A stretch of 64,000 nucleotides of DNA, from the NCBI GenBank assembly GCA_038400315.1, contig CP151667.1, forward strand, positions 868,001-932,000. The letters run 5' to 3'. A program made the translations under genes and the position numbers. This document shows, piece by piece, positions 11,138 to 34,230 of the stretch. The notes under the pieces are model-generated. The model was not told where the DNA came from and did not search any database. It saw nothing but the letters and a program-made list of their open reading frames with translations. The DNA comes from Isosphaeraceae bacterium EP7 (lineage in GTDB: Bacteria > Planctomycetota > Planctomycetia > Isosphaerales > Isosphaeraceae). Positions within the stretch are counted from its first letter, which is position 1, and every line of letters starts with the position of its first letter.

Positions 11138-13960
11138 TCAGCCCCCGGCCGGGAGCATGGCCACGACCCCGGCGCAACGGGCGCAGAGCGTCGGATGGGC
11201 CGGGTCCGAACCGACCGACTCACGCTGGTTCCAGCACCGCTCGCACTTCGGATGGGTCGACTTCTCGACCGTGACCAGGGGAAGATCGGCGTCCCCGCCG
11301 GTCCCGCTCGCCACCACCTTCACCTCGGAGACGATGAACAGCTCGGTCAGCAACTCGACGTCCGCCCGGGCTGCCGCGGCCCGCTCCTCGGTCGGGTAGG
11401 TCAGCGTGACTACCGCACCCTGCGAGCTGCCGATCAGCTTCTGGGCCCGCATCGGCTCGATCGACAGCGTCACCAGCTCGCGGAGGGCGAACAGCCGCTC
11501 CCAGCGGGATTTGAGCGCGGGGTCATCGAATGCCGGATCGGCCTCGGGCCAAGCGGCCAGGTGCACGCTCTCGGCCTTCTCGCCGTCGGTCGGCAGGAAG
11601 TCCCAGACCTCCTCGGCCGAGTGCGGGACGATCGGCGCGACCATCCGGACCAGGGCCCTCAGCACCCGGTCGAGTACGAACCGGGCCGCCCGCCTGGGCT
11701 CGCCGTCGGGGGCCTCGGCGTAGAGCCGATCCTTCAACACATCGAAATAGAGGCTCGACAGGCCGACTCCGCAGAACTCGTAGAGCCGCTGATAGGCCTT
11801 GTACAGCTCGAATCGCTCATAGGAGGCCGTCACATCCCGCACCACGTCGTTCAGGAGCCCGAGCGCCCAGCGGTCGACCTCCCGCAGCGCGGGCACTCCG
11901 GCCGAATCCCCGTCGAACCCGGCGTAGTCGTCCAGGTTGCCGAGCATGTATCGGAATGTGTTTCGAATCTTCCGGTAAGACTCCGACATCTCCTTGATGC
12001 CTGCCTCGCGGATCTTCACGTCGTCGGCATAGTCCATGCTGGCGATCAGCAGCCGGAGCACGTCGGCCCCATAAGTCTCGGTCGCCTTCACGGCCGAGAT
12101 CGCGTTGCCGCCGCTCTTGGACATCTTCTCCCCCTTCTCGTCGAGGATGAACCCGTGCGTCAGCACGGCCTCGAAGGGGGCCCGGCCGGTCGTGCCGACC
12201 GCCGTCAGGATCGAAGACTGGAACCAGCCGCGGTGCTGGTCCGAGCCTTCCAGGTACAGATACGCCGGGAACCCCAGCCCGCGCCCTTCGTCGGACAGCA
12301 CGGCCCGGTGGCTGCTGCCCGACTCGAACCAGACGTCAAGGATGTCACCCTGCTTGACGAACGACCCGCCGCCGCACTTCGGGCACGACGTCCCGGGGGG
12401 CAGCAGGCTCTCGGCCGGCTCGGTGTACCAGGCGTCGGCCCCCTTCTCGCGGACGATGTCCCGGACGTGCCGGACGCTCTCGGCCGTGAGGACCTGGGTG
12501 CCGCACCCTTCGCAGCCGAACGCCGGGATCGGCACGCCCCAGGCACGCTGGCGGCTGATGCACCAGTCGGGCCGGCCCGCCACCATCGACTCGATCCGGG
12601 TCCGGCCCCAGCCGGGGATCCACTTCACCCCGGCGATGGCCTCCATCGTTCGGCCGCGCAGGTCATTGCGGTCGACCCCGACGAACCACTGCTCGGTCGC
12701 CCGCTGGATCACCGGCTTCTTGCACCGCCAGCAATGGGGGTAACTATGCTTGAACGCGAATTCATGATAGAGCGCCCCGGCGGACCGGAGCATCTCGACC
12801 ACGACCGGGTTCGCCGCGAAGACGTTCTTGCCCACCAGCTCGGGCGGGGCCTCGTCGGTGAACCGCCCGGCGGCGTCCACCGGGCTGATCGTCGGCAGGC
12901 CCAGGGCGCGGCAGACCTGGTAGTCCTCCACGCCGTGCCCGGGCGCGTTGTGCACCAGCCCCGTGCCGTCGTCCACGCTCACGTAGTCGGCCATGATCAA
13001 GGGGCCGGTGCGGTCGATGAAGACGTGGCGATACGTCGCCCCTTCCAGGTCTTTGCCCTTGCAGCGACCCAGCTCGACGACCTCCGTCACGCCGCGCAGG
13101 GCCATCACCTTCGACAGTAGCTCGACGGCCACGATGGCGTGGACCGGCCTGCCGTCGGCGGGGTCGGCGTAGCGCACGCCGGCGTAGTCGATCTTCGGGT
13201 TCAGGGCGATCGCGACGTTGCCCGGCAGGCTCCAGGGGGTCGTCGTCCAGATCATCGCATGCCAGGGACCTTCGCCCCAGGCGGCCGGCACGCCGGCGGT
13301 CATCGGGAAATTCACATAGACGCTGGTGCTGGTCTCGTCGCGATACTCAAGCTCGGCCTCGGCCAGCGCCGTCCGGTCCTGGATGCACCAGTGCAGCGGC
13401 TTGAGCTGGCGGAAGACCTCGTCGCGGGCCAGCAGGTCGGCCAGCACGTCGAGGACGCCCGCCTCATAGGCCGGGTTCAGGGTCAGGTACGGATTCTCGA
13501 AGTCGCCGCTGATCCCCAGCCGCCGGAACTGCCCTGTCTGCACGCCGACCCACTTCAGGGCCTCGACGCGGCAGAGGTCGCGGATCTCGGGGAAGCTCAT
13601 CGTGGAGGCCTTCGAGCCCAGGTCCTTCATGACCTTGTGCTCGATCGGCAGCCCGTGGCAGTCCCAGCCCGGCACGTAGGGGCTGTCATACCCCTTCATG
13701 GTGAAGAACCTGACGATGACGTCCTTGAGCACCTTATTGAGAAGGTGACCCATGTGGATGTCGCCGTTGGCATAGGGGGGGCCGTCGTGCAGCACCCGCC
13801 TCTGCTTGCCCTTCCCGGCCTCCCGGATCTTGCCGTAGAGGCCGGTCTCCGCCCACCTTGCCTGGACCTTCGGCTCCCTGAGGTTCAGGTTCGCCTTCAT
13901 CTCGAACCGGGTGACCGGCAGGTTCAAGGTGTCCTTGTACGGCTTCGCATTCGTCGACAT
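11138..13960 (-). CDS. ileS: Isoleucyl-tRNA synthetase
   Basis: A 940-residue class I aminoacyl-tRNA synthetase of bacterial type. The ATP-binding HIGH motif appears as G-D-I-H-M-G-H (about residue 70) after P-P-Y-A-N, and the KMSKS motif as E-K-M-S-K-S-G-G-N (about residue 607). The CP1 editing domain lies between about 200 and 400. There is a zinc-binding insertion with C-E-G-C-G and C-P-K-C-G pairs near 470-520, and a C-terminal zinc knuckle C-E-R-C-W ... C-A-R-C typical of bacterial IleRS. The length matches the family. purN follows with a 3-bp gap. Confidence 0.97.
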   Translation of the reverse strand: MSTNAKPYKDTLNLPVTRFEMKANLNLREPKVQARWAETGLYGKIREAGKGKQRRVLHDGPPYANGDIHMGHLLNKVLKDVIVRFFTMKGYDSPYVPGWDCHGLPIEHKVMKDLGSKASTMSFPEIRDLCRVEALKWVGVQTGQFRRLGISGDFENPYLTLNPAYEAGVLDVLADLLARDEVFRQLKPLHWCIQDRTALAEAELEYRDETSTSVYVNFPMTAGVPAAWGEGPWHAMIWTTTPWSLPGNVAIALNPKIDYAGVRYADPADGRPVHAIVAVELLSKVMALRGVTEVVELGRCKGKDLEGATYRHVFIDRTGPLIMADYVSVDDGTGLVHNAPGHGVEDYQVCRALGLPTISPVDAAGRFTDEAPPELVGKNVFAANPVVVEMLRSAGALYHEFAFKHSYPHCWRCKKPVIQRATEQWFVGVDRNDLRGRTMEAIAGVKWIPGWGRTRIESMVAGRPDWCISRQRAWGVPIPAFGCEGCGTQVLTAESVRHVRDIVREKGADAWYTEPAESLLPPGTSCPKCGGGSFVKQGDILDVWFESGSSHRAVLSDEGRGLGFPAYLYLEGSDQHRGWFQSSILTAVGTTGRAPFEAVLTHGFILDEKGEKMSKSGGNAISAVKATETYGADVLRLLIASMDYADDVKIREAGIKEMSESYRKIRNTFRYMLGNLDDYAGFDGDSAGVPALREVDRWALGLLNDVVRDVTASYERFELYKAYQRLYEFCGVGLSSLYFDVLKDRLYAEAPDGEPRRAARFVLDRVLRALVRMVAPIVPHSAEEVWDFLPTDGEKAESVHLAAWPEADPAFDDPALKSRWERLFALRELVTLSIEPMRAQKLIGSSQGAVVTLTYPTEERAAAARADVELLTELFIVSEVKVVASGTGGDADLPLVTVEKSTHPKCERCWNQRESVGSDPAHPTLCARCAGVVAMLPAGG

Positions 13961-14014
13961 GAAGCGCTCAATCTTTGGCTCGCGGCGAGTCCATCGCGGG
14001 CAATCCGGCCCGTC

Positions 14015-14845
14015 TCAGGCATCCAGCCGCTTCAAGACCTCGATCACCAGCGTCCTGAGCTTCCCCTCGGCCGTCTTGGCGACCTTGATAATCTCCTCGA
14101 TGTTCGCCGGCTCCAGCGCATCGGGGAGGCAGAGGTCGGTCACGATCGAGAAGCCCAGCACCTTCAGGCCGGCGTGGACGGCCACCAGGACCTCGGGCAC
14201 CGTCGACATGCCGACCACATCGGCGCCGATGGCCCGCAGGAACCGATACTCGGCCCGCGTCTCCAGGTTCGGCCCGGTCACCGCCACATAGACGCCCCGG
14301 TGCGCGACGATCTTCTGCTCCAGGGCAATCTCGAGGGCCAGGGCCTGCAGCTTCTTATCGTAGGGCTCGATCAGGTCGGGGAACCGGAGCCCCAGGCGGT
14401 CATCATTCGGCCCGATCAGGGGGTTGATCCCCATCAGGTTGATGTGGTCTTCGATGACGATCAGGTCGCCCTTGTGATGCAAGGGGTTCAGGCCGCCGGC
14501 CGCGTTGGAGACGAGCAGCGTGGTGCAGCCGAGCTCCTTCATGACCCGGATCGGGAACGTGACCTGGGCCGGCGTATACCCTTCATAGGAATGGAAGCGG
14601 CCTTCCATCGCCACCACCGACTTGCCCGCCAGGGTCCCGCAGACGAGCTGGCCCTTGTGGCTCTCGACCGTCGACTTGGGGAAGTGGGGGATCTCGGGAT
14701 AGGGGATCCGCGCCTCGGCCTTGATCTCGTCGGCCAGGCCTCCCAGGCCGGTGCCGAGGACGATGCCGACGGTCGGCGTCCCGGGCCAGCGGCCCTTCAC
14801 GGCCTCGGTGGCTTCGCGGACGTCGTCCCAGGTGTGGTGGAGCAT
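14015..14845 (-). CDS. Purine nucleoside phosphorylase (trimeric PNP type)
   Basis: A 276-residue enzyme that splits purine nucleosides with phosphate. Family signatures are complete: I-V-L-G-T-G-L-G-G (phosphate loop), [19 protein letters not shown] and [12 protein letters not shown] with E195 as base-binding Glu. At the position of human Asn243, which contacts the purine 6-position, there is Asp (D237 in S-I-V-T-D-L-C). In the human enzyme an Asn-to-Asp change at this site is known to favour 6-aminopurines, so the natural substrate may include adenosine. The gene lies 54 bp downstream of ileS on the same strand, near purN. Confidence 0.92.
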
Positions 14846-14947
14846 GGGTGCCTGACTCAGAGGTGGGCGACGGCGACGGCCACGCGTGGGCCTTGCGTCG
14901 TGACGGGAGGGCGAGAGGTTGAATCAGACGGGCCGTGCCGGCCGGCG

Positions 14948-15487
14948 TCAGGGCGTGTCGTGTTCGGCGGCCCGGGCGTAGGCAAGGCGGATCATGCGGT
15001 CGAACCGCGCGTCGCCGCGAAGCGGCTTCAGGTCGGGGTCGCGCCTCAGGTGATCGGCGTGGTGATACCCCAGGTCGAGCGCCTGCTGAAGGGCCCCGAA
15101 GGCGGGGTCGAGCATGCCGAGCACGGCGAAGCTACAGGCCAGATTGTACCAGGGGATCGACCGCTCGGGGAGCAGGCGGACGAGCCTGCGGTCGACCTGC
15201 AGGGCCCGGGCATGCTGGCCCTTGGACGCCAGGTTGTTGGCGTGAACCCGAAGGGCTTCGGTGTAGAGCGGGTCGCGTTCCAGGACCCGGCCGAAGAACT
15301 CCAGTTCGAAGTCGATCTGGGTCTGCTCTCGCAGTCTCCTCGTCGAAGGCGCGGGCTTCGCTCCCTCGGCCGAGGGATCGTCCGGTCGTTCGTAGGCTGC
15401 GGCCATCGCGGGTTGCTCCCCTGTCGGCATCGAGTCTGGCCCAGCCCCCATGCATCCCTTGCGGGCGCGGAAGGGCCAAGAAAGCAT
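14948..15487 (-). CDS. Small TPR-like protein
   Basis: A protein of up to 179 residues with two or three tetratricopeptide-like helical pairs: L-E-R-D-P-L-Y-T-E-A-L-R-V-H-A-N-N-L, R-S-I-P-W-Y-N-L-A-C-S-F-A and A-L-D-L-G-Y, followed by D-P-D-L-K-P-L-R-G-D-A-R-F, a common ending in TPR proteins. It has no signal peptide and no enzymatic motif. Three in-frame ATG codons (15487, 15430, 15406) are possible starts. The later ones would remove a basic, poorly structured N-terminus and give a more typical TPR protein. It probably acts as an interaction adaptor, partner unknown. Confidence 0.65.
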   Translation of the reverse strand: MLSWPFRARKGCMGAGPDSMPTGEQPAMAAAYERPDDPSAEGAKPAPSTRRLREQTQIDFELEFFGRVLERDPLYTEALRVHANNLASKGQHARALQVDRRLVRLLPERSIPWYNLACSFAVLGMLDPAFGALQQALDLGYHHADHLRRDPDLKPLRGDARFDRMIRLAYARAAEHDTP

Positions 15488-15594
15488 CCCTCAAGAATAG
15501 CCAGAACGCAAGTCGGCCTCCAAGCCGAAGTTTACGAAAAACCGGATGGTGTCGGGCGGCCACATCCGGGGCCGACCGAGACCCGGCCGCGCCC

Positions 15595-15619
15595 CTGCCC
15601 CGCCGAGTTGCCGGCGGGG
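15595..15619 (-). terminator. Hairpin downstream of the acidic protein gene
   Basis: An inverted repeat GCCCCGCCG / CGGCGGGGC with a 5-6-nt loop lies 40 bp after the stop of the minus-strand acidic protein gene. It lacks a U-tract, so its terminator function is uncertain. Confidence 0.4.
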
Positions 15620-15660
15620 CCACGGGCCGGACCGGGATCGAGGTCGTCTAGGCCCGAGGC

Positions 15661-16014
15661 TCAGACGTCGTCGATCTCGTCTTCATCCTCGTCGTCGTCG
15701 TCGTCCAGGTCATCATCGTCGTCATCATCGTCGTCGTCATCGTCGTCATCGTCGATTTCGATCTCGTCGATCTGGTCGAAGTTCTCTCCTTCCAGCTCGT
15801 CGTCCTCGTCGTCGTCGAGGTCGTCGTCCTCGTCTTCGTCGTCTTCGAAGTCGTCGTCAACTTCCTCGTCGTCGTCCACGTCGTCCTCGTCCAGCTCCTC
15901 TTCCTCGCCCGGGTGGCGGGCAGTCAGCGGGGCTACTTTGGAAAACGAAGGGGTGGTCGCCAGGCCGGCGATCACGTCTTCGAGGGTCTCGGACAACACC
16001 AGGCAGTCCAACAT
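15661..16014 (-). CDS. Small, extremely acidic protein (Asp/Glu tail)
   Basis: The start is placed at ATG 16014, preceded by GAGGAA, rather than at the far-upstream in-frame start at 16428 that would overlap the oxidoreductase gene antiparallel in content. The 117-residue product has an ordinary N-terminus (M-L-D-C-L-V-L-S-E-T-L-E-D-V-I-A-G-L, about 35 residues) and then about 80 residues composed almost only of Asp and Glu, including a run of 15 Asp. The DNA is a GAC/GAT/GAG triplet repeat. Such tails occur in DNA-mimic, histone-chaperone-like or metal-buffering proteins, but no function can be assigned. A real gene is likely because the Asp/Glu pattern is kept by mixed codons. Confidence 0.65.
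   Translation of the reverse strand: MLDCLVLSETLEDVIAGLATTPSFSKVAPLTARHPGEEEELDEDDVDDDEEVDDDFEDDEDEDDDLDDDEDDELEGENFDQIDEIEIDDDDDDDDDDDDDDDLDDDDDEDEDEIDDV
15670..15900. repeat. Trinucleotide-like simple repeat (GTC/ATC) encoding Asp/Glu tract
   Basis: On the plus strand the sequence is dominated by GTC, ATC and CTC triplets with few interruptions. It corresponds to GAC/GAT/GAG codons of the acidic protein. Such tracts are prone to slippage and length change. Confidence 0.8.
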
Positions 16015-16192
16015 GAGGTCATTCCTCGGGCCAAGGGGGACAGGTCGCCCCGACTCATTGTCTTGCACTCGCCGACTCGCCTCTCGGGAGGATCGGCACG
16101 TCGGGCGAAGGATAGGCCGTACGATCGAGAACTTCGGGGAGATTCGGGGCCGGTGGGCCGGGCACGCGTCCACCGGCGTGTGCGGCGCCTTC

Positions 16193-17221
16193 TCAGGTCG
16201 GTCGGACGACCTGGCCGGTGGCGGCCGAACGTCCGATGGCGTCCAGCAACCGGACGGCGTCGAGGGCCTCGTCGGCCGGGCAGCAGAGCGGGCCGTTGCC
16301 GGCGATCGCGGCCACGAAGTTGGCGTCGATGCTCTCGCCGGGCTCAGGCAGTCCGACCTCCGCGGGGGGGGACCGGCCGATCGTCTCGACCAGGGTCCGG
16401 TCGGTGAGGTGGAGACGACCCAACTCACCGAAGAACGTCATCTCGAAGAGCGAGTCGGGCGAGATCCCCGACAAGGCCACCGTCGCGAGGACCCCGCCGC
16501 TGAGCTGGATCGCCGCGGCTGTGACCACGTCCAGGCCCGAATCCAATCGGCTTTGCACGGCCGCGACTTCAACGGCAACACGGCCGGTGCTCCAGAGCAA
16601 GGCGTCCAGCAGGTGGTCGCCAGCGTCGGCGAGCAGGCCCCCGCCGGCGATCTTGGGGTCGAACCTCCAGGAGTTCTCCGCCCCGCCGTGCCCCTCCAAC
16701 CAGGGCTGGGCGAGCGTCGCCGAGACCAGCCTGAGCGCCCCGATGGTCCCCTCGGCAAGCCGGGCACGGGCGGCGATCAGGCTCGGGAGCAGCCGGTACT
16801 GATGGCCGACGCCGACGAGCCGTTTGCGCCCCTGGGCCAGGCCCACGATGTCGGCCGCCTCCTGGGCGCTGGTCGAAAGTGGCTTCTCGACGAAGACGTG
16901 GCAGCCCGCCTGGAGCGCGTCCATCGTCGGGCGGTAGTGGGCCAGGTGCGGCGTGAAGACGGCGATGGCGTCGGGCGCAGTCTCATGAATCAAGGCGGCG
17001 TGGCCCGTGAACACCGGCACGGCCGTCTCAACACGTCGGTCCCCGATCATGCCCAGCCCGACTGCGGTCGCACGATCGGCCAGGGCCTGGGCGGCGTGCC
17101 GGTCGGCATCGGCGCAGCCGACCACTCGGACCCCGTCCAGCGCGAGGAAGCGATCCATGTGGATCCCCGCCGCGTGGCCGCAGCCGATGAAGCCGATCCG
17201 CAACTCGCGAGTCCCGTCCAT
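16193..17221 (-). CDS. Gfo/Idh/MocA family NAD(P)-dependent oxidoreductase
   Basis: A 342-residue protein. The Rossmann nucleotide-binding loop is I-G-F-I-G-C-G-H-A-A-G at the N-terminus. The family signature E-K-P-L lies in H-V-F-V-E-K-P-L-S, and the catalytic-domain H-Q-Y-R segment and G-D-H-L-L-D-A-L-L-W helix follow. Members oxidise or reduce sugars, inositols and related compounds; the substrate cannot be told from sequence. The start is taken at ATG 17221, which has GGAG five bases upstream; GTG 17227 is an alternative. It stands alone, transcribed away from tRNA-His. Confidence 0.88.
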   Translation of the reverse strand: MDGTRELRIGFIGCGHAAGIHMDRFLALDGVRVVGCADADRHAAQALADRATAVGLGMIGDRRVETAVPVFTGHAALIHETAPDAIAVFTPHLAHYRPTMDALQAGCHVFVEKPLSTSAQEAADIVGLAQGRKRLVGVGHQYRLLPSLIAARARLAEGTIGALRLVSATLAQPWLEGHGGAENSWRFDPKIAGGGLLADAGDHLLDALLWSTGRVAVEVAAVQSRLDSGLDVVTAAAIQLSGGVLATVALSGISPDSLFEMTFFGELGRLHLTDRTLVETIGRSPPAEVGLPEPGESIDANFVAAIAGNGPLCCPADEALDAVRLLDAIGRSAATGQVVRPT

Positions 17222-17227
17222 GCCCAC

Positions 17228-17563
17228 TCCATCCCTCGCCTGCGCGCCCGCGATCTTCTTTTAGGCAGTACCCGAATCCGCGGCCCTCGACGCACCCCGC
17301 GTCGGACGCTCGCAACCAGCCTCGCCGACAACCTGCCGCGACCGGTGGCCGGAGTATTCCGGCACCGGCGGCCCCCAGAGTCTAGACATTATCCGGCCCG
17401 GTCAAGGGATGTCCCGAGATTTTTCCAAGCCCTTACGCAGCCTCTTCCCCGGGACCCTCTTCGGCCCCGGATTTCTCGCCCCCGGCGGCCCGGCCTGTTG
17501 ACGACGCGGCGGGCGAATGATTACCATCAAACCTCGCTCGCCCTTCCCGATGGGCGAGATGAT
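17228..17563. other. Divergent intergenic region before tRNA-His
   Basis: About 336 bp without a gene. It contains the probable tRNA-His promoter near its right end and presumably that of the oxidoreductase gene at its left end. No other structure was seen. Confidence 0.5.
17498..17527 (+). promoter_or_regulatory. Putative sigma-70-type promoter of tRNA-His
   Basis: TTGACG at 17498-17503 and TACCAT at 17522-17527 are separated by 18 bp and lie about 37 bp upstream of the tRNA. The same TTGACN spacing pattern precedes the other tRNA genes of the window. Confidence 0.45.
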
Positions 17564-17637
17564 GGTGGTTGTGGCCTAGCGGTTAAGGCGCCAGATTGTG
17601 GATCTGGAGATCGCGGGTTCAAATCCCGTCAGCCACC
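17564..17637 (+). tRNA. tRNA-His (GTG)
   Basis: A full cloverleaf is visible. The acceptor stem GTGGTTG pairs with CAGCCAC, with an extra G at 17564 opposite the C discriminator, as is diagnostic for tRNA-His. The anticodon loop TTGTGGA gives anticodon GTG, and the T-loop TTCAAAT is intact. CCA is not encoded. Confidence 0.95.
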
Positions 17638-17758
17638 CCTTATTGTCGACTCTGTCACCCAGATGTCCTCGACACCGGACGACTCCCGTCGTCCCAATCC
17701 GGGCTGCTCCGGTCTTTTCGCCCTGATGGCCGGTCTGCCATGGGCCCAGGGCGTGACC

Positions 17759-18622
17759 ATGACTTCCCCGTCGGACGGCGTTGAACGCCTGGTCCTCGAC
17801 GTCAACGGTTTCCGCTTCGATGCGCTGGCCGGTGGCCCTGTGTCCGGCCCCCTCGTGATCCTGTTGCACGGGTTCCCGGAATTCGCCGACTCCTGGCTGC
17901 CCATCCTGGGGCGGCTTGCCGAGGCGGGCTTTCGAGCTGTCGCGGTCGATCAACGCGGGTATTCTCCCGGGGCCCGGCCCGGGCGGGTTGCCGACTATGC
18001 GGTCGACCTGCTGGTGTCGGATGTCCTGGGCTTTGCCGACACCTTCGGCCAGGCTCGGTTCCACCTGGTCGGCCACGATTGGGGTGGCATCGTCGCCTGG
18101 ACCTTGGCGGCCCGCCATCCCGGGCGACTTGCCTCGCTCTGCGTCCTGTCGGTCCCCCACGTCGACGCGCTGCTCGACGCGATCGCCAACGACCCCGACC
18201 AGCAACGTCGGTCCTGGTACGTCAAACTCTTCCGGGCACCGTTCCACATCGCCGAGTTCCTCCTCAAGGCCTGGAACTTCCGGGGCTTGAAGAAGGCCTA
18301 TGACGGCAAGCTATCCGCCCCGCAGGTCGAGGCCAACGTCCGTCGATTGCGCGAGCCGGGGGCGCTGACCGCCGCCCTGAACTGGTACAGGGCGCTCGAC
18401 GTCTCGGCGCGCATCGGCCTGGTTGAGGTCCCCACCTTGTACGTCTGGGGCGACCGCGACCAGGCCCTCGGGCCTGTCGCCGCACACGCGACCGCGGCCC
18501 ACGTCTCCGGTCCCTATCGTTTCGAGATCCTCGACGGCGCCTCGCACTGGCTGCTCGAAGAGGAGGCAGCGGCGGTCGGTCGGTTGATCCTCGAAAACCT
18601 GGGGGCGAAGCCCAGCAATTAG
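17759..18622 (+). CDS. Alpha/beta hydrolase, epoxide-hydrolase-like
   Basis: A 287-residue protein; the chosen ATG 17759 gives a typical N-terminus for the family, although an in-frame ATG at 17663 is possible. The oxyanion-hole motif is H-G-F-P-E (residues 37-41). The nucleophile elbow is G-H-D-W-G-G with Asp107, the arrangement of epoxide hydrolases and haloalkane dehalogenases. The catalytic acid is probably Asp234 in W-G-D-R-D, and the base is His263 in G-A-S-H-W. Lid tyrosines expected for epoxide hydrolases may be Y154 (S-W-Y) and Y210 (N-W-Y). It is probably cytosolic, and the substrate is unknown. It follows tRNA-His but is not obviously linked to it. Confidence 0.85.
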   Translation: MTSPSDGVERLVLDVNGFRFDALAGGPVSGPLVILLHGFPEFADSWLPILGRLAEAGFRAVAVDQRGYSPGARPGRVADYAVDLLVSDVLGFADTFGQARFHLVGHDWGGIVAWTLAARHPGRLASLCVLSVPHVDALLDAIANDPDQQRRSWYVKLFRAPFHIAEFLLKAWNFRGLKKAYDGKLSAPQVEANVRRLREPGALTAALNWYRALDVSARIGLVEVPTLYVWGDRDQALGPVAAHATAAHVSGPYRFEILDGASHWLLEEEAAAVGRLILENLGAKPSN

Positions 18623-18867
18623 CCCCCCTAAAGCGTGTTGGTTCATGTATTTGTTAAATTGGTTGATTTGCTGCGCCGCTGGCGCGAGACTTGCAGATTC
18701 CTGATCCGCGAATCAATCCCGCCTGAGCCAGTCCGTGTCCATCGAGCGAACAGGGCGTTGACACAGGCACCGTAGCGGGGGGCCTTCGTCATTGTCTGCT
18801 GCGCTGGCTCTCGCCGAATCGCGACTCGGGAGAGCAAGGCCCCGCGAATTTTCTGAGGATCACTGCG

Positions 18868-21492
18868 ATGTCTCTACCGATCCCGGCGCGGACGTCCGCC
18901 CCCATCTTGCTGTGTCATTGTCATCTACGTTGGGATTGGGTGTATCAGCGTCCCCAGCATCTGTTGACCCGAATGGCCGCGCACTGGCCGGTGATCGTCG
19001 AGGAAGAACCGCTCTTCGACGACCGTCCTCCCGGCCTCGATGTGCTGCACGTGGCCGACGGCGTCACGGTCCTGCGCCCGCACCGGCGAGCGGATCGCGA
19101 CTTCGACCTCGGGCGGCTCGTCGAAGACTATGTCCAGCAAGTGCGCGGCGATCGCCCGCTGATCCGCTGGTTCTATTCGCCGATCTTCTCGGCGTATGGC
19201 GACCGGCTCGCCGCCGATCAGGTCGTGGTTTATGACTGCATGGACGAGCTGGCAAACTTCGCCGGGGCCCCCTCCGGACTGGCCGAGGCCGAGACCCGGC
19301 TGCTCGGGCGGGCCGACGTCGTGTTCACCGGGGGCCGGAGCCTGTACGAGGCCAAGGCCGGCCGGCACGCGAATCTCCACTGCTTCCCGTCCGCGGTCGA
19401 GGCGGGCCACTTCGCCAAGGCCGAGGACCCCGCCCTCCCGCTTCCCGCCGATCTGGCCGATCTGCCCAGGCCGATCCACGGCTATTACGGCGCGGTCGAT
19501 GAGAGGCTGGATTACGACCTGATCGCGCGGCTGGCCGACACGCCGGGCGTGGGCTCGGTGGTGCTCGTCGGCCCCCTGATCAAGGTCGACCCGGCAAGCC
19601 TGCCCCGGCGTGACAACCTCCATTATCTCGGCCAGAAGTCGTATGCCGAGCTTCCCGCCTATTTGAAGGGCTTCGACGTCTGCCTGATGCCCTGGGCCCT
19701 GAACGAATCGACCAAGACGATCAGCCCGACGAAGACCCTGGAATATATGGCCGGCGGCAAGCCGATCGTGTCGACCGCGGTCCGCGACGTGGTGCGCGAC
19801 CACGGCGATCTGGTCTTTGTCGCCGAGAGCGCCGACCAGTTCCTCTCGATGGCCACGACGGCGATGGCCAATTTCGACGAGCCTCGGGCCGCGGCCGGCA
19901 GGCGTCGGGCCGATGAGAGCGGCTGGGACGCGACCGCCGATGCGATGCGCCGCCAGATCGAGCAGCATTTCAGCAGCCCCGCACCCCAACCGAAAGTCCG
20001 ACGCATGGTTGTCGACGAGGCGAAGAACCTGATCATCGGCGCGGGCCCGGCCGGCCTGAGCGCCGGTCTGCATCTGGATGACCCCGACTTCCTGATCGCC
20101 GACAAGCACGGCCGTGCCGGCGGGCTCTGCCGCTCGATCATCGACGGCGGGTTTACGTTCGACTACGCCGGTCACATCTTCTTCACCCAGGACAAGTATG
20201 TTGACTCCCTGTTCCGCGAGGTCCTGAAAGGGAACTTCCACGAGCAGGTCCGCGAGAGCTGGGTCTACCTCTACGACGCCTACCAGCGCTATCCGTTCCA
20301 GGGGAACCTGTATGGGCTGCCGACCGAGGTGGTCAAGGAGTGCCTGCTCGGCGTGATCGAAGCTTCCAGGCATCCGCTGCTCACCGCAACGAGCGGGCAC
20401 GCCAACGGAGCCGGGGACGGCAACGGAATCGGCAATGGCCACTCGGTCCCGCCTAACTTCCTGGAGTGGAGCAAGCGGACGTTCGGCGAGGGGATCACCC
20501 GGCACTTCATGGAGCCGTACAACTTCAAGGTCTGGGGCATCGACCCCGCCCGGATGAGCAGCGACTGGATCGCCGGCCGGGTGCTGACCCCGTCGCTCGA
20601 CGAGGTCATCGAGGGATCGCTCCAGCGTGGCCGCGGCGACATGGGCCCGAACTCGAAGTTCGGCTACCCCGTCAACGGCGGCTGCGAGATGTTCGTCGCC
20701 GGCCTTGCGTCCCGCGTCAGTGCCCGCGGCGGCGCGTTCGCCCAGAACAGGACGCTGGTGAAGCTCGACCCGATCAAGCGACGGGCGACGTTCCGCGTCG
20801 AGGAGGCGGGGTCGTCCGACGCCAGGCTGGAGACGATCGGCTACGGCACCCTCTACCCGAGCGTCCCGCTGCCCGACCTGATCGCGGCCATCGAGGGGGC
20901 CCCGGAGGTGGTCCGCCAGGCGGCCAACAGCCTGCCGAGCACGGCCGTCGTCTGTGTTAATCTGGGCATCAACCGCGAGAAGGTCACGGAGAAGCACTGG
21001 ATCTACTATCCCGAAGGCCAGGACAAGTACATCTTCCAGCGCATCTTCGTCCAGTCGAACGCGTCGCCCAACAACGCCCCGCCTGGGCACAGTGCACTCA
21101 CCTTCGAGATCAGTCACTCGAAGTACAAGCCGCTGCCCGTTCAGGGCAAGCGTGCGCTGATCGACGCCTGCGTGGCCGGCCTGAAACGGACGGATCTCTG
21201 GCGAGACGGCGACGAGGTCGTCTTCGAGCAGGTGCTGGGCATGCCGCATGCCTACATCCCCTTCACGCCCGAACGCCAGGGCAACCTCGACATCATCAAC
21301 GCGTACCTGCACGGGCTGGGGATCTACCCGATCGGCCGGTTCGGCGAGTGGAAGTACGTCAACCAGGACGGTGCGATCCTCTCGTCGAAGCGGGTGGTCG
21401 AGTCGGTCCAGTCCGGCGAGAAGTCGATCGGCCCCGCGCCGCAGGCCCCTCGTGGCCGGTCCAAAGGGCTGAGCGGCGCCGGTCGCCCTTGA
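18868..21492 (+). CDS. Fusion: glycosyltransferase (TuaH-like) + UDP-galactopyranose-mutase-like FAD protein
   Basis: An 874-residue two-domain protein; the start ATG has GAGG 10 bases upstream. Residues about 10-370 resemble GT4/TuaH-type glycosyltransferases: H-L-R-W-D-W-V-Y-Q-R-P-Q-H-L at the start, a middle Rossmann part, and P-T-K-T-L-E-Y-M-A-G-G-K-P-I-V-S-T near 290, the usual donor-binding end. Residues from about 384 form an FAD/NAD-binding domain with N-L-I-I-G-A-G-P-A-G-L-S-A, G-G-L-C-R and a C-terminal R-F-G-E-W-K-Y, resembling UDP-galactopyranose mutase or protoporphyrinogen-oxidase-like flavoproteins. A Gly/Asn-rich spacer lies near 510-530. The pairing suggests that a furanose sugar nucleotide is made and transferred by one protein. 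The specificity is inferred. Three glycosidase genes follow. Confidence 0.8.
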   Translation: MSLPIPARTSAPILLCHCHLRWDWVYQRPQHLLTRMAAHWPVIVEEEPLFDDRPPGLDVLHVADGVTVLRPHRRADRDFDLGRLVEDYVQQVRGDRPLIRWFYSPIFSAYGDRLAADQVVVYDCMDELANFAGAPSGLAEAETRLLGRADVVFTGGRSLYEAKAGRHANLHCFPSAVEAGHFAKAEDPALPLPADLADLPRPIHGYYGAVDERLDYDLIARLADTPGVGSVVLVGPLIKVDPASLPRRDNLHYLGQKSYAELPAYLKGFDVCLMPWALNESTKTISPTKTLEYMAGGKPIVSTAVRDVVRDHGDLVFVAESADQFLSMATTAMANFDEPRAAAGRRRADESGWDATADAMRRQIEQHFSSPAPQPKVRRMVVDEAKNLIIGAGPAGLSAGLHLDDPDFLIADKHGRAGGLCRSIIDGGFTFDYAGHIFFTQDKYVDSLFREVLKGNFHEQVRESWVYLYDAYQRYPFQGNLYGLPTEVVKECLLGVIEASRHPLLTATSGHANGAGDGNGIGNGHSVPPNFLEWSKRTFGEGITRHFMEPYNFKVWGIDPARMSSDWIAGRVLTPSLDEVIEGSLQRGRGDMGPNSKFGYPVNGGCEMFVAGLASRVSARGGAFAQNRTLVKLDPIKRRATFRVEEAGSSDARLETIGYGTLYPSVPLPDLIAAIEGAPEVVRQAANSLPSTAVVCVNLGINREKVTEKHWIYYPEGQDKYIFQRIFVQSNASPNNAPPGHSALTFEISHSKYKPLPVQGKRALIDACVAGLKRTDLWRDGDEVVFEQVLGMPHAYIPFTPERQGNLDIINAYLHGLGIYPIGRFGEWKYVNQDGAILSSKRVVESVQSGEKSIGPAPQAPRGRSKGLSGAGRP

Positions 21493-21504
21493 TCCCAGGG
21501 GCCG

Positions 21505-21570
21505 ACCGCCTTCCTTCCAACCGTCCGGGGCCGGGGCCGATGTTCGGGCCCGAACGGTTGGAAGGGGCGG
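21505..21570 (+). promoter_or_regulatory. Long intergenic hairpin between fusion gene and GH5-like gene
   Basis: A perfect 12-bp inverted repeat (CCTTCCAACCGT at 21513-21524 and its complement at 21554-21565) is extended by CCGCC/GGCGG outside and a GC-rich inner stem. No U-tract follows. It may stabilise or process the upstream mRNA, or attenuate transcription into the glycosidase genes. Confidence 0.5.
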
Positions 21571-21598
21571 CCCGGCCTGTCTCCGAGGAGAAGTCCTG

Positions 21599-23098
21599 AT
21601 GGTCACCTTGTTCGACCCGCCGATTGCCGAGGCCGAGCCGACGCTGTTTCCCCCCGACTGGGGGACGTCCAAGCCCCTCGCGTGGGTGAGACTTGGCCCC
21701 GGCCGCCGCTACTTCGAGACCGAAGACTCTGAGCCGTTCCTCATCATCGGCCAGAATGATGCCCTGACCTGGCCGGAACTGGAAGGGCTGCTCGGCCGGC
21801 GCGACGTCGCCTCCGTGGAAAGGCACCTGGCCTGGCTCAGCGAGCATGGCGTGACCACGCTCCGGGTCATGCTCGAGTACGTGGGGGACGGGCTCTTCCT
21901 GGAACGGAGCCCTGGCGACTTCGACCCGGTGACGGTCCAGGCCGTCGACGACCTGATCGCCCTGTGCGATCGCCATGGGCTCAGGCTTCTCCTGACGCCG
22001 TTCGACACCTTCTTCACCTGGGTGATGTGGGACGATCACCCCTATAACTCGGCCCGCGGCGGCCCATGCAGCAGGCAGATCGACCTGCTGACCGACCCCG
22101 AAGGTATGGCGGCGGTTAAGCGGCGGATTGCGTTCGTGGTGGAACGCTGGGGGGGCTCGGGCGTGGTCTTCGCCTGGGATCTCTGGAACGAGCTTGGGCA
22201 CGACCACGGGGTGGCCTCGGAGGCGATCGACTTCGAAACTGCGAGCCGACTGATGGACGTCGTGGCCGACCTCTCGGAGCACGTCCGGCAGATCGAGCGG
22301 CTTCACTTCGGCAAGACGCATCTCCAGACGGTCAGCCATTTTGGCGCCGAGCCCCGCGGCCCATTGGCGGAACTGATCTTCCGTCACCCGAGCCTCGACT
22401 TCGCCACAACCCACGTCTACGAGCCGGGGGCGATCGACGCGCCGACGAACACGGTGGCGGCGGCCGACGCGATGGCCCGGTGGGTGCGGCACGCCCTGGC
22501 CGAGATCCGTGACGGCCGTCCGTTCACCGACAGCGAGACGGGCCCGATCCACACCTTCAAGGACATGGGGATCACGCTCCCCGAAGGGTTCGACCTGGGC
22601 TATTTCCGCCACATGTCGTGGGCCCACCTGGCCAGCGGCGGTGCCGGCGGCGGGATGCGCTGGCCGAACCGGCACCCGCACACTCTGACCCCCGGGATGC
22701 GCCAGGCCCAGGCCGTGATGGCCGACTTCGCCCGGCTCATCGACTGGCCCCGGTTCGCGTCCGTGAATGTCACCGACCTGGTGAAGGTGGCCCCCGAAGA
22801 TCTGCTTGCTTACGCCTGTCTCGACGGCCGGCAGGCGGTCGCCTGGGTGATCCGCGGCCGCGAGGCGATGGAGCACGAAGGCGAGCTTCCGTTCCTCCCG
22901 CTCGTCCGCGAGGCCACGATCGAGCTTCCCTCGATGGACGCGGGCAGGTATGACCTGACATTCGTCGAGACGCACAACGGCCAGATCCTCGGAGAGGTGA
23001 CGCTCGACTGCCGGGGCGGTCCTCTCGCGTTCGAACTGCCGCCGTTCCGGCACGACCTGGCTATCGCCGTCCGTCCCGCGAGAGAGCATCGCGCATGA
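21599..23098 (+). CDS. GH5-like (cellulase/beta-mannanase clan) glycoside hydrolase, cytosolic
   Basis: A 499-residue protein without signal peptide; the start ATG follows GAGGAGAAG. The central TIM-barrel pattern of clan GH-A is recognisable. It has G-V-T-T-L-R-V-M early, an acid/base Glu at about residue 197 in A-W-D-L-W-N-E-L, a H-V-Y-E-P strand, and a likely nucleophile Glu near residue 312 in T-D-S-E-T-G-P. The C-terminal 100 residues form a beta-rich domain. Such enzymes split beta-linked glucans or mannans, but the substrate here is not known. The next gene overlaps by 4 bp (ATGA), so the two are translationally coupled. Confidence 0.75.
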   Translation: MVTLFDPPIAEAEPTLFPPDWGTSKPLAWVRLGPGRRYFETEDSEPFLIIGQNDALTWPELEGLLGRRDVASVERHLAWLSEHGVTTLRVMLEYVGDGLFLERSPGDFDPVTVQAVDDLIALCDRHGLRLLLTPFDTFFTWVMWDDHPYNSARGGPCSRQIDLLTDPEGMAAVKRRIAFVVERWGGSGVVFAWDLWNELGHDHGVASEAIDFETASRLMDVVADLSEHVRQIERLHFGKTHLQTVSHFGAEPRGPLAELIFRHPSLDFATTHVYEPGAIDAPTNTVAAADAMARWVRHALAEIRDGRPFTDSETGPIHTFKDMGITLPEGFDLGYFRHMSWAHLASGGAGGGMRWPNRHPHTLTPGMRQAQAVMADFARLIDWPRFASVNVTDLVKVAPEDLLAYACLDGRQAVAWVIRGREAMEHEGELPFLPLVREATIELPSMDAGRYDLTFVETHNGQILGEVTLDCRGGPLAFELPPFRHDLAIAVRPAREHRA

Positions 23099-24600
23099 GC
23101 ATGCCGGCCGAGTCGCCGATCCCCAGCTTTTCGAATCCGATCGAGGGGATCGCGCTCGGCGACCCGTTCGTCCTGCCTCATCGAGGCCGGTTCTACCTGT
23201 ATGGGACCGCGGATGGCCCCGGGCCCGGCGACGGCCGGGTCATCCCGGTCTACCGCTCCGACGACCTGCTGAACTGGACCCCGCTGGGCGGCGCCCTCGT
23301 GCCCGCCGAGGGGGAGCCCGCCGATTACTGGGCCCCCGAGGTGATGGCCTGGAACGGCAAGTTCTACATGGTCGTCAGTTTCGGCGACGTCGAGCGGAGA
23401 GGGCACGCCCTCTGGGTCGCCGTGGCCGACGATCCCGCGGGGCCGTTCCATCTCCGCACGCAGATCAGCGACCCTTCGGAGAAGTTCTCGATCGACGGCT
23501 CGTGGCTGCTGGACGACGACGGTCGGCTTTACCTGTTCCGCTGTCTCGACTTCGTGGAAGACGGGCAGCCCCCGCACGGGACGGGGATCGTCGCCCAGCC
23601 GATGCGTGACCCCTTGACGCCCGAGGGGCCCCCAGTCCCGATCCTGCGTGCCCATTCCCCCTGGCAGCTGTTCCAGTCCGATCGGACGATGCCGCTGTAC
23701 GACAACCGGCGGTTCGAGAGCTGGAACACCATTGAAGGCCCCGCGCCGGTCCGCCGCCACGGGCGTTATTTCTGCGGCTACAGCGGCGGTAACTATACCG
23801 GGGCGTACGGCACGGGCGAGGCCGTGGCCGATGCACCCCTGGGCCCGTACACCGACCTTCGGGGCCGCGAGGGCCCGATCTTCGGCACGGTCCCCGGCCT
23901 GGTCGAAGGGCCCGGCCATTTCTCGGTCGTCCGGCCGGACCTGGTGCACGACTGGATCGTGCTGCACGGCCGTCGTCCGGGCGAGCACGTCCGCCGGGTC
24001 TGGCTGTGCCCGGCCTTCTGGGACGCTGGCGGCGTGACCATCGGTCGATTGACCGACCAGCCGCAGACGGCGCCTCCCCTCCCCTCCGACCGCTCACGAT
24101 TCGCCCCGGGCGTCAAGCCGGAGGGCTGGACCTTCGAGTCGGGCGAATGGTCGACGGTCGATGATGGACTCGCCTCCCACGCAGGCCTGGCCTCGGGCCT
24201 GGCCTGGCGAGACGCCCTTGATCTGGTCGATGATTTCGCGGTCGAGATCTGGGTCCGATTTTCCTCGGCCGGTTCTGGCCGAGCTGGGATGATTCTCCGA
24301 AGCGAGGCGGGGAATCTGTCGATCTTACTCCCGGCTTCGCCCGATTCCCCGGCGCTCATCGGGGGGACGGAAGGGGCCGTGACCGATGCCCCGCTGCCGA
24401 CCCTGGGAGGAGCGAGTTTCGACCCGACGTGCTTCCACCGCATCGACGTCCGGGCCGGAGGCGGGACGGCCGAGGTTCGACTCGACGGAGTAATCCTGGC
24501 AGCCGGTGTGACGGTCCCCCGGGGACGGATTAAGTTGGGTTTGATGGCCGAGGGACCAGCCATCTTCGACGCGATCTCGGCGACTCGAGTCGTTGCATAA
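23095..24600 (+). CDS. GH43-like glycoside hydrolase with C-terminal LamG-like domain
   Basis: A 501-residue protein, start overlapping the previous stop. Residues about 12-330 follow the five-bladed beta-propeller of GH43. The catalytic base is Asp23 in L-G-D-P-F-V. The pKa-setting Asp is about D134 in S-I-D-G-S-W, and the general acid about E271 in V-E-G-P-G-H-F. A W-A-P-E-V segment at about 81 is typical. Residues 345-500 look like a concanavalin/LamG-type jelly roll. GH43 enzymes remove arabinofuranose, xylose or galactofuranose units. Given the mutase-like domain encoded upstream, furanose removal is an attractive but unproven idea. No signal peptide. Confidence 0.82.
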   Translation: MSMPAESPIPSFSNPIEGIALGDPFVLPHRGRFYLYGTADGPGPGDGRVIPVYRSDDLLNWTPLGGALVPAEGEPADYWAPEVMAWNGKFYMVVSFGDVERRGHALWVAVADDPAGPFHLRTQISDPSEKFSIDGSWLLDDDGRLYLFRCLDFVEDGQPPHGTGIVAQPMRDPLTPEGPPVPILRAHSPWQLFQSDRTMPLYDNRRFESWNTIEGPAPVRRHGRYFCGYSGGNYTGAYGTGEAVADAPLGPYTDLRGREGPIFGTVPGLVEGPGHFSVVRPDLVHDWIVLHGRRPGEHVRRVWLCPAFWDAGGVTIGRLTDQPQTAPPLPSDRSRFAPGVKPEGWTFESGEWSTVDDGLASHAGLASGLAWRDALDLVDDFAVEIWVRFSSAGSGRAGMILRSEAGNLSILLPASPDSPALIGGTEGAVTDAPLPTLGGASFDPTCFHRIDVRAGGGTAEVRLDGVILAAGVTVPRGRIKLGLMAEGPAIFDAISATRVVA

Positions 24601-24682: not shown

Positions 24683-24717
24683 AGTACGTACTAAAGAGTG
24701 GACGGTGCCGTCCACTC
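24683..24717. promoter_or_regulatory. Two adjacent palindromes upstream of the GH1-like gene (possible operators)
   Basis: A perfect 10-bp palindrome AGTACGTACT at 24683-24692 is followed by a 22-bp palindrome at 24696-24717 with arms GAGTGGACGG and CCGTCCACTC around a central TG. They lie 60-95 bp upstream of the start codon at 24777. Arms of this size and symmetry fit a dimeric repressor such as a LacI-type sugar regulator, but no regulator gene is nearby. Confidence 0.5.
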
Positions 24718-24776
24718 AATCTCCGCCCTGGCATGGCGGGAAAATCGAGACGGGACTTCGTGGGAGTGGACCGACA

Positions 24777-26126
24777 ATGGACAGCCAACCGATCGGCGGG
24801 GTCGTCGTCGACCTGAGTTCGATGCGGCGCGGTCAAGGCTCCTATCCCAACGGGTGGGGCCCCTCATCGTCCGAGTTCCTCTGGGCTGTCGGCATCGAGA
24901 ATACGTTCGTCCCGCACACCCGGGCCGGCCATCGGAGGCTCGACGAGTACGAGCTGATGGACCACTATCGGCTCTGGCGGCAGGACATCGACATCGCAGC
25001 CGACCTGGGGATCTCGACGATTCGCTATGGAATTCCCTGGTACAGGGTGAACCCCGAGCCCGGGAAGTACGACTGGTCGTGGACCGACCCCGTCTTGGAG
25101 TATCTCGTCGAGGTGAAGGGGCTGACCCCGATCATCGACCTGATGCATTACGGGACGCCGCTCTGGCTCGACAACCACTTCGTCAACGCCTCGTATCCGC
25201 GACGGGTCGCGGAGTTTGCGTCGAAGTTCGCCGAGCGTTACGGGTCGCTGGTTCACTGCTATACGCCGGTCAACGAGCCTTCGGTGACGGCCAACTTCTG
25301 CGGGCGAGACGGTCGCTGGCCCCCCTACCTGCGGGGCGAGGACGGCTACGTCAAGATCTTGCTGTCGCTGGCCAAGGGGATGAGCCTGACGGCCGAGGCC
25401 CTGCGAGCCGCGCAGCCCGACGCGGTGCTCGTCCACGTCGAGGACGTCGGCCTGGAACTGGCCGGCTCCCCCGAGGTCGAGGATCTTGCCGCCGAGGCCC
25501 AGTCCCGACGACTCCTGCCGCTCGACCTCGCCTGCGGGAAGGTCCTGCCCGGCCATGCTCGGTTCGAATGGTTGCTGGAGCACGGGGCGACCGAGGCCGA
25601 ACTGGTCTGCCTGGCCGAGCACGCGCCCCGCTGGGATGTGCTGGGGGTGAACTACTATCCCTGGTCGAGCCATAAATTCGTGGTCCGCCGCGACGGCAAG
25701 ACCCGGGTGATGGGCCACCGCACGCCCACCGACCTGGCGGATGTTTTGCGGCTGGTGCACGATCGCTACCAGCTGCCCATGATGGTCACCGAGACCAGCT
25801 CGAACGGCCCGCACGTCGAACGCGCCCGCTGGATGCGCGAGACCGTGTCGGCCGTCCACCGGGTCCGCTCCGAGGGCGTGCCCGTGCTGGGGTACACCTG
25901 GTTCCCGCTGTTCACGATGATCGAGTGGAAATATCGCTGGTCGCGCAAGGGGATGGAGCATCATCTGCTCCACCTGGGCCTGTACGACGTCGTGCCCGAC
26001 TCCGGTCGGATGGACCGCGACCCGACCCCGCTGGTCGATGCCTATCGCGACTACGTGGTTACCCCGTCCGCGTCGGTGGGCGAGATGATCCTTGAGGAGG
26101 TCGAGGCTTCCTGCCTCGTCGCCTGA
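24777..26126 (+). CDS. GH1-like beta-glycosidase, cytosolic
   Basis: A 449-residue protein. The start is set at ATG 24777, which has GGGAG upstream; an in-frame ATG at 24705 lies inside the palindrome and is less likely. GH1 features are the acid/base Glu167 in T-P-V-N-E-P-S-V and the nucleophile Glu339 in M-V-T-E-T-S-S-N-G. Further barrel strands are I-R-Y-G-I-P-W-Y-R-V and L-G-V-N-Y-Y-P. It would hydrolyse beta-glycosides with retention of configuration, releasing glucose, galactose or similar sugars. With no signal peptide and two other glycosidases upstream, it probably completes breakdown of an oligosaccharide in the cytoplasm. It converges with the DUF1501 gene, with 6 bp between. Confidence 0.85.
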   Translation: MDSQPIGGVVVDLSSMRRGQGSYPNGWGPSSSEFLWAVGIENTFVPHTRAGHRRLDEYELMDHYRLWRQDIDIAADLGISTIRYGIPWYRVNPEPGKYDWSWTDPVLEYLVEVKGLTPIIDLMHYGTPLWLDNHFVNASYPRRVAEFASKFAERYGSLVHCYTPVNEPSVTANFCGRDGRWPPYLRGEDGYVKILLSLAKGMSLTAEALRAAQPDAVLVHVEDVGLELAGSPEVEDLAAEAQSRRLLPLDLACGKVLPGHARFEWLLEHGATEAELVCLAEHAPRWDVLGVNYYPWSSHKFVVRRDGKTRVMGHRTPTDLADVLRLVHDRYQLPMMVTETSSNGPHVERARWMRETVSAVHRVRSEGVPVLGYTWFPLFTMIEWKYRWSRKGMEHHLLHLGLYDVVPDSGRMDRDPTPLVDAYRDYVVTPSASVGEMILEEVEASCLVA

Positions 26127-33973: not shown

Positions 33974-33998
33974 GCACGGCTGACTCGGAAATGACCTC

Positions 33999-34052
33999 AA
34001 CGACCGATCCCACCTCGCCCAGGGCGAGACGCGGATCGGTCGTTCCTTTTTT
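33999..34052 (+). terminator. Intrinsic terminator of the DUF1559-lipoprotein unit
   Basis: A 12-bp perfect stem (AACGACCGATCC / GGATCGGTCGTT) encloses a second small stem (CTCGCCC/GGGCGAG) and is followed by CCTTTTTT. This is one of the clearest rho-independent terminators in the window. Confidence 0.9.
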
Positions 34053-34162
34053 AGGTCTGGCCGTCTTGTCTGCTATCGGGTTGAGTCGGCTGACGTACGC
34101 GGGCCGACGCATGGCAGCGAAAGCCATCGATCCGCTTCAGCCGTCATCCCCTGAGTCAACGA

Positions 34163-34199
34163 AATACGGCGGCCCCCATTTGGAGAGGGCCGCCGTATT
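34163..34199 (-). terminator. Hairpin terminator of the YTV-repeat gene
   Basis: A 13-bp perfect inverted repeat AATACGGCGGCCC / GGGCCGCCGTATT with an 11-nt loop lies 32 bp after the minus-strand stop. Read on the minus strand it ends in ...TATTTC, a short U-tract. Confidence 0.7.
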
Positions 34200-34230
34200 G
34201 GGGTCTGAATTCGTCCGACTTCGCCCGGGC

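Follow-up and report, generated by a model that had tools for sequence, protein, structure and literature searches.

Organization of Galactofuranose Enzymes

UDP-galactofuranose (UDP-Galf) is a rare, thermodynamically disfavoured sugar donor. The UDP-galactopyranose mutases (UGMs) and the galactofuranosyltransferases have been studied as pathogen targets and, in the literature compared here, as separate proteins. In mycobacterial GlfT1/GlfT2, Kingella pamABCDE, WbbI and WbbO, a UGM and Galf transferases work together (passages of PMC12269835 and PMC7278926), as is proposed below for a single polypeptide. In K. kingae, the UGM and the Galf transferases are encoded in one locus, with the mutase PamB a separate protein (excerpt of PMC12269835). 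The term “bifunctional” in the corresponding passages of the K. kingae work (PMC12269835) and of a review of Galf enzymes (PMC7278926) denotes one transferase forming two linkages, not a mutase joined to a transferase. Searches of a library of open-access papers returned no description of a UGM-glycosyltransferase fusion.

Bacterial and eukaryotic UGMs form two classes that share 14–18% identity (in a section of PMC3624792). The eukaryotic enzymes TcUGM (4dsg/4dsh) and AfUGM (3ute) are stand-alone proteins of ~480–510 aa. The active-site residues of TcUGM listed in part of a QM/MM study are Gly61, His62, Arg176, Asn201, Tyr317, Arg327, Tyr395, Arg423, Tyr429, Asn433 and Val63 (PMC4192007), and the uracil-binding Gln of AfUGM is absent from bacterial UGMs, according to the same section of PMC3624792. 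Bacterial Glf (TIGR00031, PF03275) is expected to catalyze the same reaction as the mutase described here, and occupies the same place in alphaproteobacterial glycosyltransferase (GT) fusions and in GT-glf gene pairs.

A Fused Transferase–Mutase Gene in a Planctomycete

The DNA analysed (the window) is a stretch of 64,000 nucleotides from Isosphaeraceae bacterium EP7 (contig CP151667.1). An earlier note, made from the letters alone, had described an uninterrupted frame at 18868–21492 (+) that joins a TuaH/GT4-like domain to a mutase-like FAD domain. The frame stands: it encodes 874 aa from an ATG start, and Pfam places a GT domain in the N half and FAD domains in the C half (Table 1). The GC content of the three codon positions is 0.71/0.47/0.84 in the GT half, compared with 0.63/0.45/0.91 in the mutase half. 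In both halves, differences from a 76%-identical relative (genome G018) affect third positions roughly two to three times as frequently as first and second ones. By both measures, the frame is true coding sequence on either side of the junction and across it. A read-through artefact that merely joins two genes was rejected, since both halves lie in one frame in 79 of the 80 loci kept from at least 558 confirmed relatives; in the remaining locus, from a Chloroflexaceae MAG (L083), they form two adjacent frames.

Other reading frames were noted in this region. A 915-aa antisense ORF (18925–21672, −) overlaps nearly all of the fusion gene and is taken as a high-GC artefact. An 1827-aa ORF (13139–18622), the end of which encodes an alpha/beta hydrolase, is regarded as partly spurious because a tRNA-His gene (17565–17639) lies inside it. 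The ORF at 15661–16428 (−) contains long Asp/Glu-rich runs that are mirrored as serine runs in the overlapping ORF of the + strand.

Table 1. Positions in the window of the fusion gene, its parts and the genes behind it.
Feature	Position	Strand	Basis
874-aa GT4–predicted UDP-galactopyranose mutase fusion gene	18868..21492	+	open frame from ATG to stop; homologous fusions
GAGGA, likely ribosome-binding site, 8 bases 5′ of the fusion ATG	18855..18859	+	read directly
GT4-type, TuaH-like glycosyltransferase half, aa 1–376 (~370)	18868..19995	+	Pfam, NCBIfam, GT tree, conserved columns
Linker, about aa 370–382	19975..20013	+	pLDDT <50 at 373–380; 10–56 residues across 67 fusions
Predicted eukaryotic-class UDP-galactopyranose mutase half, aa 383–874 (homology aa ~385 to ~850)	20014..21489	+	sequence, residues, tree, fold
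His436 = TcUGM His62	20173..20175	+	alignment
Arg571 = TcUGM Arg176, AfUGM Arg182; first active-site arginine	20578..20580	+	kept in 66/67 fusions
Arg725 = TcUGM and AfUGM Arg327; second active-site arginine	21040..21042	+	kept in 67/67 fusions
TIM-barrel glycosidase-like gene, 499 aa, next after the fusion	21599..23098	+	weak matches to DUF5060 proteins and GH5 mannanases; PDB best 7.2e-12
GH43-family gene, 4-base overlap with the preceding gene	23095..24600	+	Pfam 3.9e-36; PDB 4qqs 3.5e-28
GH1-type glycosidase gene	24705..26126	+	Pfam 5.1e-18

Class and Active Site of the Mutase Half

Sequence, predicted fold and active-site residues all support assignment of the C half to the eukaryotic-class UDP-galactopyranose mutases. 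In a phmmer search of the sequences of solved structures, it matched TcUGM at 3.3e-52 and AfUGM at 1e-50, whereas the best amine oxidase reached 0.029 and a carotene desaturase 0.051, so that the mutase-like character proposed for the FAD domain in the earlier note is upheld. The likeness to the eukaryotic enzymes extends over the whole C half at ~28% identity (Foldseek alignment) and includes the YPFQ uracil site in addition to the active site; the difference is that the window mutase is fused behind a GT4 domain and occurs in a bacterium. Pfam reports NAD_binding_8 and Amino_oxidase, both over cut-off. No NCBIfam model reached its cut-off with the C half: the best match was to the unnamed PRK07208 family (at most 181.2 of 389 bits among its five models), and the bacterial Glf model TIGR00031 gave 15.9 bits against a cut-off of 303.75, unlike true Glf.

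The two mutase active-site arginines, for which the earlier note had proposed a check, are present as R571 and R725, along with the eight other TcUGM positions. In an alignment whose numbering was checked by residue identity, G435, H436, R571, N595 and Y713 of the window protein correspond to TcUGM G61, H62, R176, N201 and Y317, and R725, Y796, R824, Y830 and N832 to R327, Y395, R423, Y429 and N433, all ten being identical; the eleventh listed position, Val63, is Ile. The uracil-binding Gln (AfUGM Gln107) is Q478 of YPFQ and is kept in 66 of 67 fusions, and each of the ten TcUGM positions is likewise kept in 66 or 67. These 67 sequences comprise 63 of the 68 stop-free loci among the 80, the window protein and L002–L004; L021 was omitted as a copy of L002; L059, L069, L088 and L095 were omitted for brevity only; and in the other 12 loci the matched range crossed a stop. 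One place differs from the known enzymes: residue 732, at the position of AfUGM Tyr334, is Ala in the window protein, as opposed to Tyr in the fungal and trypanosomal enzymes, and across the fusions it is Ala in 64 and Thr in 3.

The mutase signature is not universal in the superfamily, because related planctomycete proteins miss parts of it. All seven PRK07208-like proteins of a contrast set are without the Asn201 equivalent and six of the seven without the Gln, whereas the fusion keeps both; for this reason, and for its score under the cut-off, membership of PRK07208 was rejected. In nine additional planctomycete proteins, the Asn201- and Gln-equivalent places are occupied by Gln and Glu, and among 20 others nearer TcUGM the first active-site Arg is missing in 11. 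Absence of the first Arg or of the last Asn is common (11 rows out of 20 for each residue) in the planctomycete proteins that stand closest to TcUGM and the fused mutases (L116–L144); these are possibly UGM relatives that carry out a different chemistry. In both the residue contrast and the FAD tree, L127 is counted as stand-alone, although it is a fusion cut by the edge of the stretch read. The FAD tree, which took in 20 of the 67 fusions, places them beside, not inside, the group of TcUGM and AfUGM with moderate support (87/91), and separates Glf from the eukaryotic-class domains at 100/100.

The structure prediction that the earlier note had called for gave the same answer. An AlphaFold2 model based on the 67 aligned fusions has a mean pLDDT of 87.4 and a pTM of 0.59, with low-confidence stretches at 373–380, 507–524 and 856–874. 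In a Foldseek search of the PDB, ranks 1 to 34 are all UGMs (TcUGM 1.8e-39, TM 0.84 by target length), and the first protein of another kind is a Myxococcus protoporphyrinogen oxidase at 5.1e-23. An identity as amine oxidase, desaturase or protoporphyrinogen oxidase (PPOX) was rejected, as UGM is far closer in its sequence and in its predicted structure. At this pTM, the model does not reliably position one half against the other and gives no confident domain orientation; therefore, no claim is made that the active sites face each other. Nor is a closed tunnel between the domains claimed, the linker being disordered and varying from 10 to 56 residues across the fusions.

The Glycosyltransferase Half

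The GT4-like character that had been read in the N half is confirmed by a match to PF13692 (Glyco_trans_1_4, 6.5e-9, 36.6 bits against a cut-off of 27). TuaH, the teichuronic acid glycosyltransferase to which the earlier note had likened this half, is its best named NCBIfam family, at 4.3e-19 and 68.6 bits (NF047676). This score is far under the 550-bit equivalog cut-off, and an ordinary TuaH was rejected accordingly; furthermore, the TuaH model contains no mutase domain, unlike the fusion protein. A conserved ISPTKTLEYM block occupies aa 285–294. In a tree of 42 GTs that included 25 of the 67 fusions, all 33 UGM-linked GTs form one group at 100/100 against a narrow outgroup of nine other planctomycete GTs.

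Distribution of the Fusion

The search across planctomycetes envisaged in the earlier note found the fusion there and well beyond them. Full-length fusions are present in 4 of 59 related genomes (G000, G018, G023 and G048), and an alignment of these four was used to scan genome contigs, yielding the 80 kept loci. The carriers comprise Planctomycetota, Oxalobacteraceae, Nitrosomonadaceae, Enterobacterales (Pantoea, Erwinia, Enterobacter, Leclercia and an Escherichia sp.), Xanthomonas, Luteimonas, Acidobacteriota, Gemmatimonadota and others. In 41 of the 80 loci, the fusion is preceded by a GH1-like domain within its own frame, and the protein is then mostly 1,230–1,330 aa long; a GH1-type gene is nearby in 16, and none was seen in 23 within the DNA read, some loci being covered by a short stretch. 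Read by eye, the GH1-like domains retain NE and (S/A)ET motifs at the places of the two catalytic glutamates of GH1 enzymes. A search of complete E. coli genomes for the three-domain gene of L081 gave no match.

In public annotation, most full fusions bear the name “FAD-dependent oxidoreductase” or “NAD(P)-binding protein”, whereas fusions with Glf are called “glf”. Under such labels, the GT part of the protein goes unseen in many genomes.

One Transferase Lineage with Two Classes of Mutase

The same GT lineage also occurs with classical Glf. A plasmid collection contains 164 matching records, 17 of which span at least 80% of the query; among the other plasmid matches, the GT half of the window runs on into the glf-annotated gene in proteins of Sinorhizobium, Sphingobium and Azospirillum. 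Three alphaproteobacterial GT-Glf fusions tested (L106, L107 and L110) all scored over the TIGR00031 cut-off, at 364–390 bits, and PF03275 was found in both of those given to Pfam. Free GTs of this lineage are followed directly by glf in all seven records read (D. radiodurans, Skermanella, Caballeronia, A. lipoferum, Mesorhizobium, Ensifer and D. gobiensis), five of which count as read without prior knowledge, because the match list had already named glf for Skermanella and A. lipoferum. The mutase partner of this GT in alphaproteobacteria and Deinococcus passes the TIGR00031 equivalog cut-off. A single transferase lineage is therefore coupled to mutases of both classes, the eukaryotic-class UGM and classical Glf.

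Intermediate arrangements were found in a survey of 392 Planctomycetota genomes, in which the GT half matches 11 places in nine genomes at 1e-40. Nine of the 11 are fused to or near a mutase: one is the fusion of the window, two have classical glf directly behind (75% identical to the D. radiodurans gene), five have a eukaryotic-type UGM-like gene directly behind (42–47% to rows grouping with TcUGM), and one is a tandem copy before a GT with a eukaryotic-type UGM. The two weakest matches (33–34% identity) have no mutase within the DNA read around them. It follows from this survey that every step from gene pair to fusion exists, for both mutase classes. The two-class pattern may reflect independent joinings or the replacement of one mutase domain by the other, and both are possible.

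Two further arrangements were observed. In the planctomycete family f49 (L164, L165 and L166), the separate GT and UGM genes are surrounded by several frames of 380–460 aa, some of which are distant GT homologues, and the surroundings are like a glycan assembly locus. In Ruegeria conchae (L148:4158–6695), a GT4 gene (23% identity to the window) is followed by a gene for an NAD(P)-binding protein, with galE close by; judged by sequence, this is perhaps a distant version of the GT-mutase pair.

Gene Neighbourhood

Behind the fusion gene of the window lie three glycosidase-type genes (Table 1). The first of these matched nothing in Pfam or NCBIfam, and its homologues adjoin the fusion also in L002/L021 and L003; the gene at 33991–35649 likewise matched no Pfam family. 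GH1-type genes or domains recur beside the GT-mutase module in other phyla, and in Azospirillum and Skermanella the module is followed by genes for a GH1-like protein and an ABC transporter. The galT and galK genes flank the fusion in nine of the 80 kept loci (eight Massilia/Telluria and one Noviherbaspirillum), and a tenth locus, from Methylomagnum, has the order fusion, GH2, galT, galK. In the genome of the window, a GalE passes its cut-off (428 bits), whereas no protein does so for classical Glf.

Other fused genes were seen in these regions. Behind the GT-Glf fusion of S. meliloti pSymA (L106:11289–16807), an unusually fusion-rich locus encodes two more fusion proteins, GT4–Gfo/Idh/MocA–zinc dehydrogenase (1079 aa) and GT4–GH1-like (759 aa). 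Fusions of a GH1-type domain with an RmlD-like sugar nucleotide reductase recur beside the module (L036:8801–10969, L108:5317–7542 and L107:5501–7738). A GGAAC-N15–18-(C/G)GTT motif, which resembles the EcfG general stress promoter, precedes the annotated GT gene in three of eight alphaproteobacterial loci scanned (L105 at ~−124, L146 at ~−79 and L110 at ~−302); this count, made without a shuffled control, is too weak to use.

Proposed Function and Alternatives

What was observed directly is the domain make-up, a complete mutase active site and the constant pairing of the GT lineage with a mutase of one class or the other. On sequence grounds, we consider it likely that the fusion protein is a bifunctional UDP-Galp mutase/galactofuranosyltransferase; its catalysis, donor identity, linkage, acceptor and channelling are inferred. 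GalE would supply UDP-galactopyranose, which the C-terminal flavoprotein half, with its FAD reduced, would convert to UDP-galactofuranose via a flavin N5–sugar adduct, as in eukaryotic UGMs: reduced FAD would attack UDP-Galp, and Galf would leave as UDP-Galf. The N-terminal GT4 half would then take UDP-Galf from the tethered mutase and move Galf onto an acceptor. The benefit is likely to be a high local concentration of the donor rather than a closed tunnel. Since GT4 enzymes retain configuration, the predicted linkage is alpha-Galf. From the glycosidase and ABC transporter neighbours, it may be guessed that the product is an exported small glycan or glycolipid. Gene context, namely galT/galK and the pairing with glf, lends good support to the conditional idea of the earlier note that a furanose donor is made and used by one protein.

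Some mutases with this fold use other sugar nucleotides as substrates, and the mutase half might therefore make another furanose donor for the GT (e.g., UDP-Araf, UDP-GalfNAc or a deoxy sugar). The window operon contains a GH43 gene, from a family rich in arabinofuranosidases, which would fit such a role. Nevertheless, galT and galK flank ten loci of three lineages, the alphaproteobacterial and Deinococcus partner scores as a UDP-galactopyranose mutase equivalog, and all ten TcUGM positions are kept, so that another donor seems improbable. It is about equally doubtful that the mutase half feeds UDP-Galf to other transferases while the fused GT uses a different donor, the fusion serving only to coordinate expression: GH-type genes, and sometimes further GTs, do occur in the same loci, but the same GT lineage accompanies two unrelated mutase classes. 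The Pfam fold names Amino_oxidase and NAD_binding_8, together with PRK07208 relatives that have no assigned function, could suggest that the FAD half is a redox enzyme of the amine oxidase or desaturase type that acts on a glycan or lipid acceptor and has no mutase activity. This is very improbable, because UGM is far closer in sequence and fold, the full UGM active site is present where the PRK07208 relatives miss part of it, and a swap with classical Glf beside the same GT is hard to explain by a redox role.

Starting from a bifunctional mutase/galactofuranosyltransferase, it is tempting to speculate more broadly, though the odds are somewhat against the full scheme, that the module is a widespread bacterial galactofuranosylation cassette. 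One GT4 lineage, a retaining (alpha-) galactofuranosyltransferase, would have taken its own mutase separately from two unrelated classes; in many Proteobacteria, the GH1-like domain of the same chain, perhaps a transglycosylase or trimming enzyme, would place on one polypeptide the steps that make the donor, transfer the sugar and process a Galf-containing glycan or glycolipid for export.

Implications

The fusion is an apparently undescribed architecture of known enzyme kinds, common and with an unusual two-mutase history. A GT lineage that travels with its own mutase, drawn from two classes, is strong comparative evidence for the role of the transferase. The incorporation of alpha-Galf has been called unclear (in the abstract of PMC3520571); if the GT4 half is retaining, the fusion would provide a handle on alpha-Galf. 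In addition, it is ready material to test whether tethering the maker of a furanose donor to its user speeds transfer.
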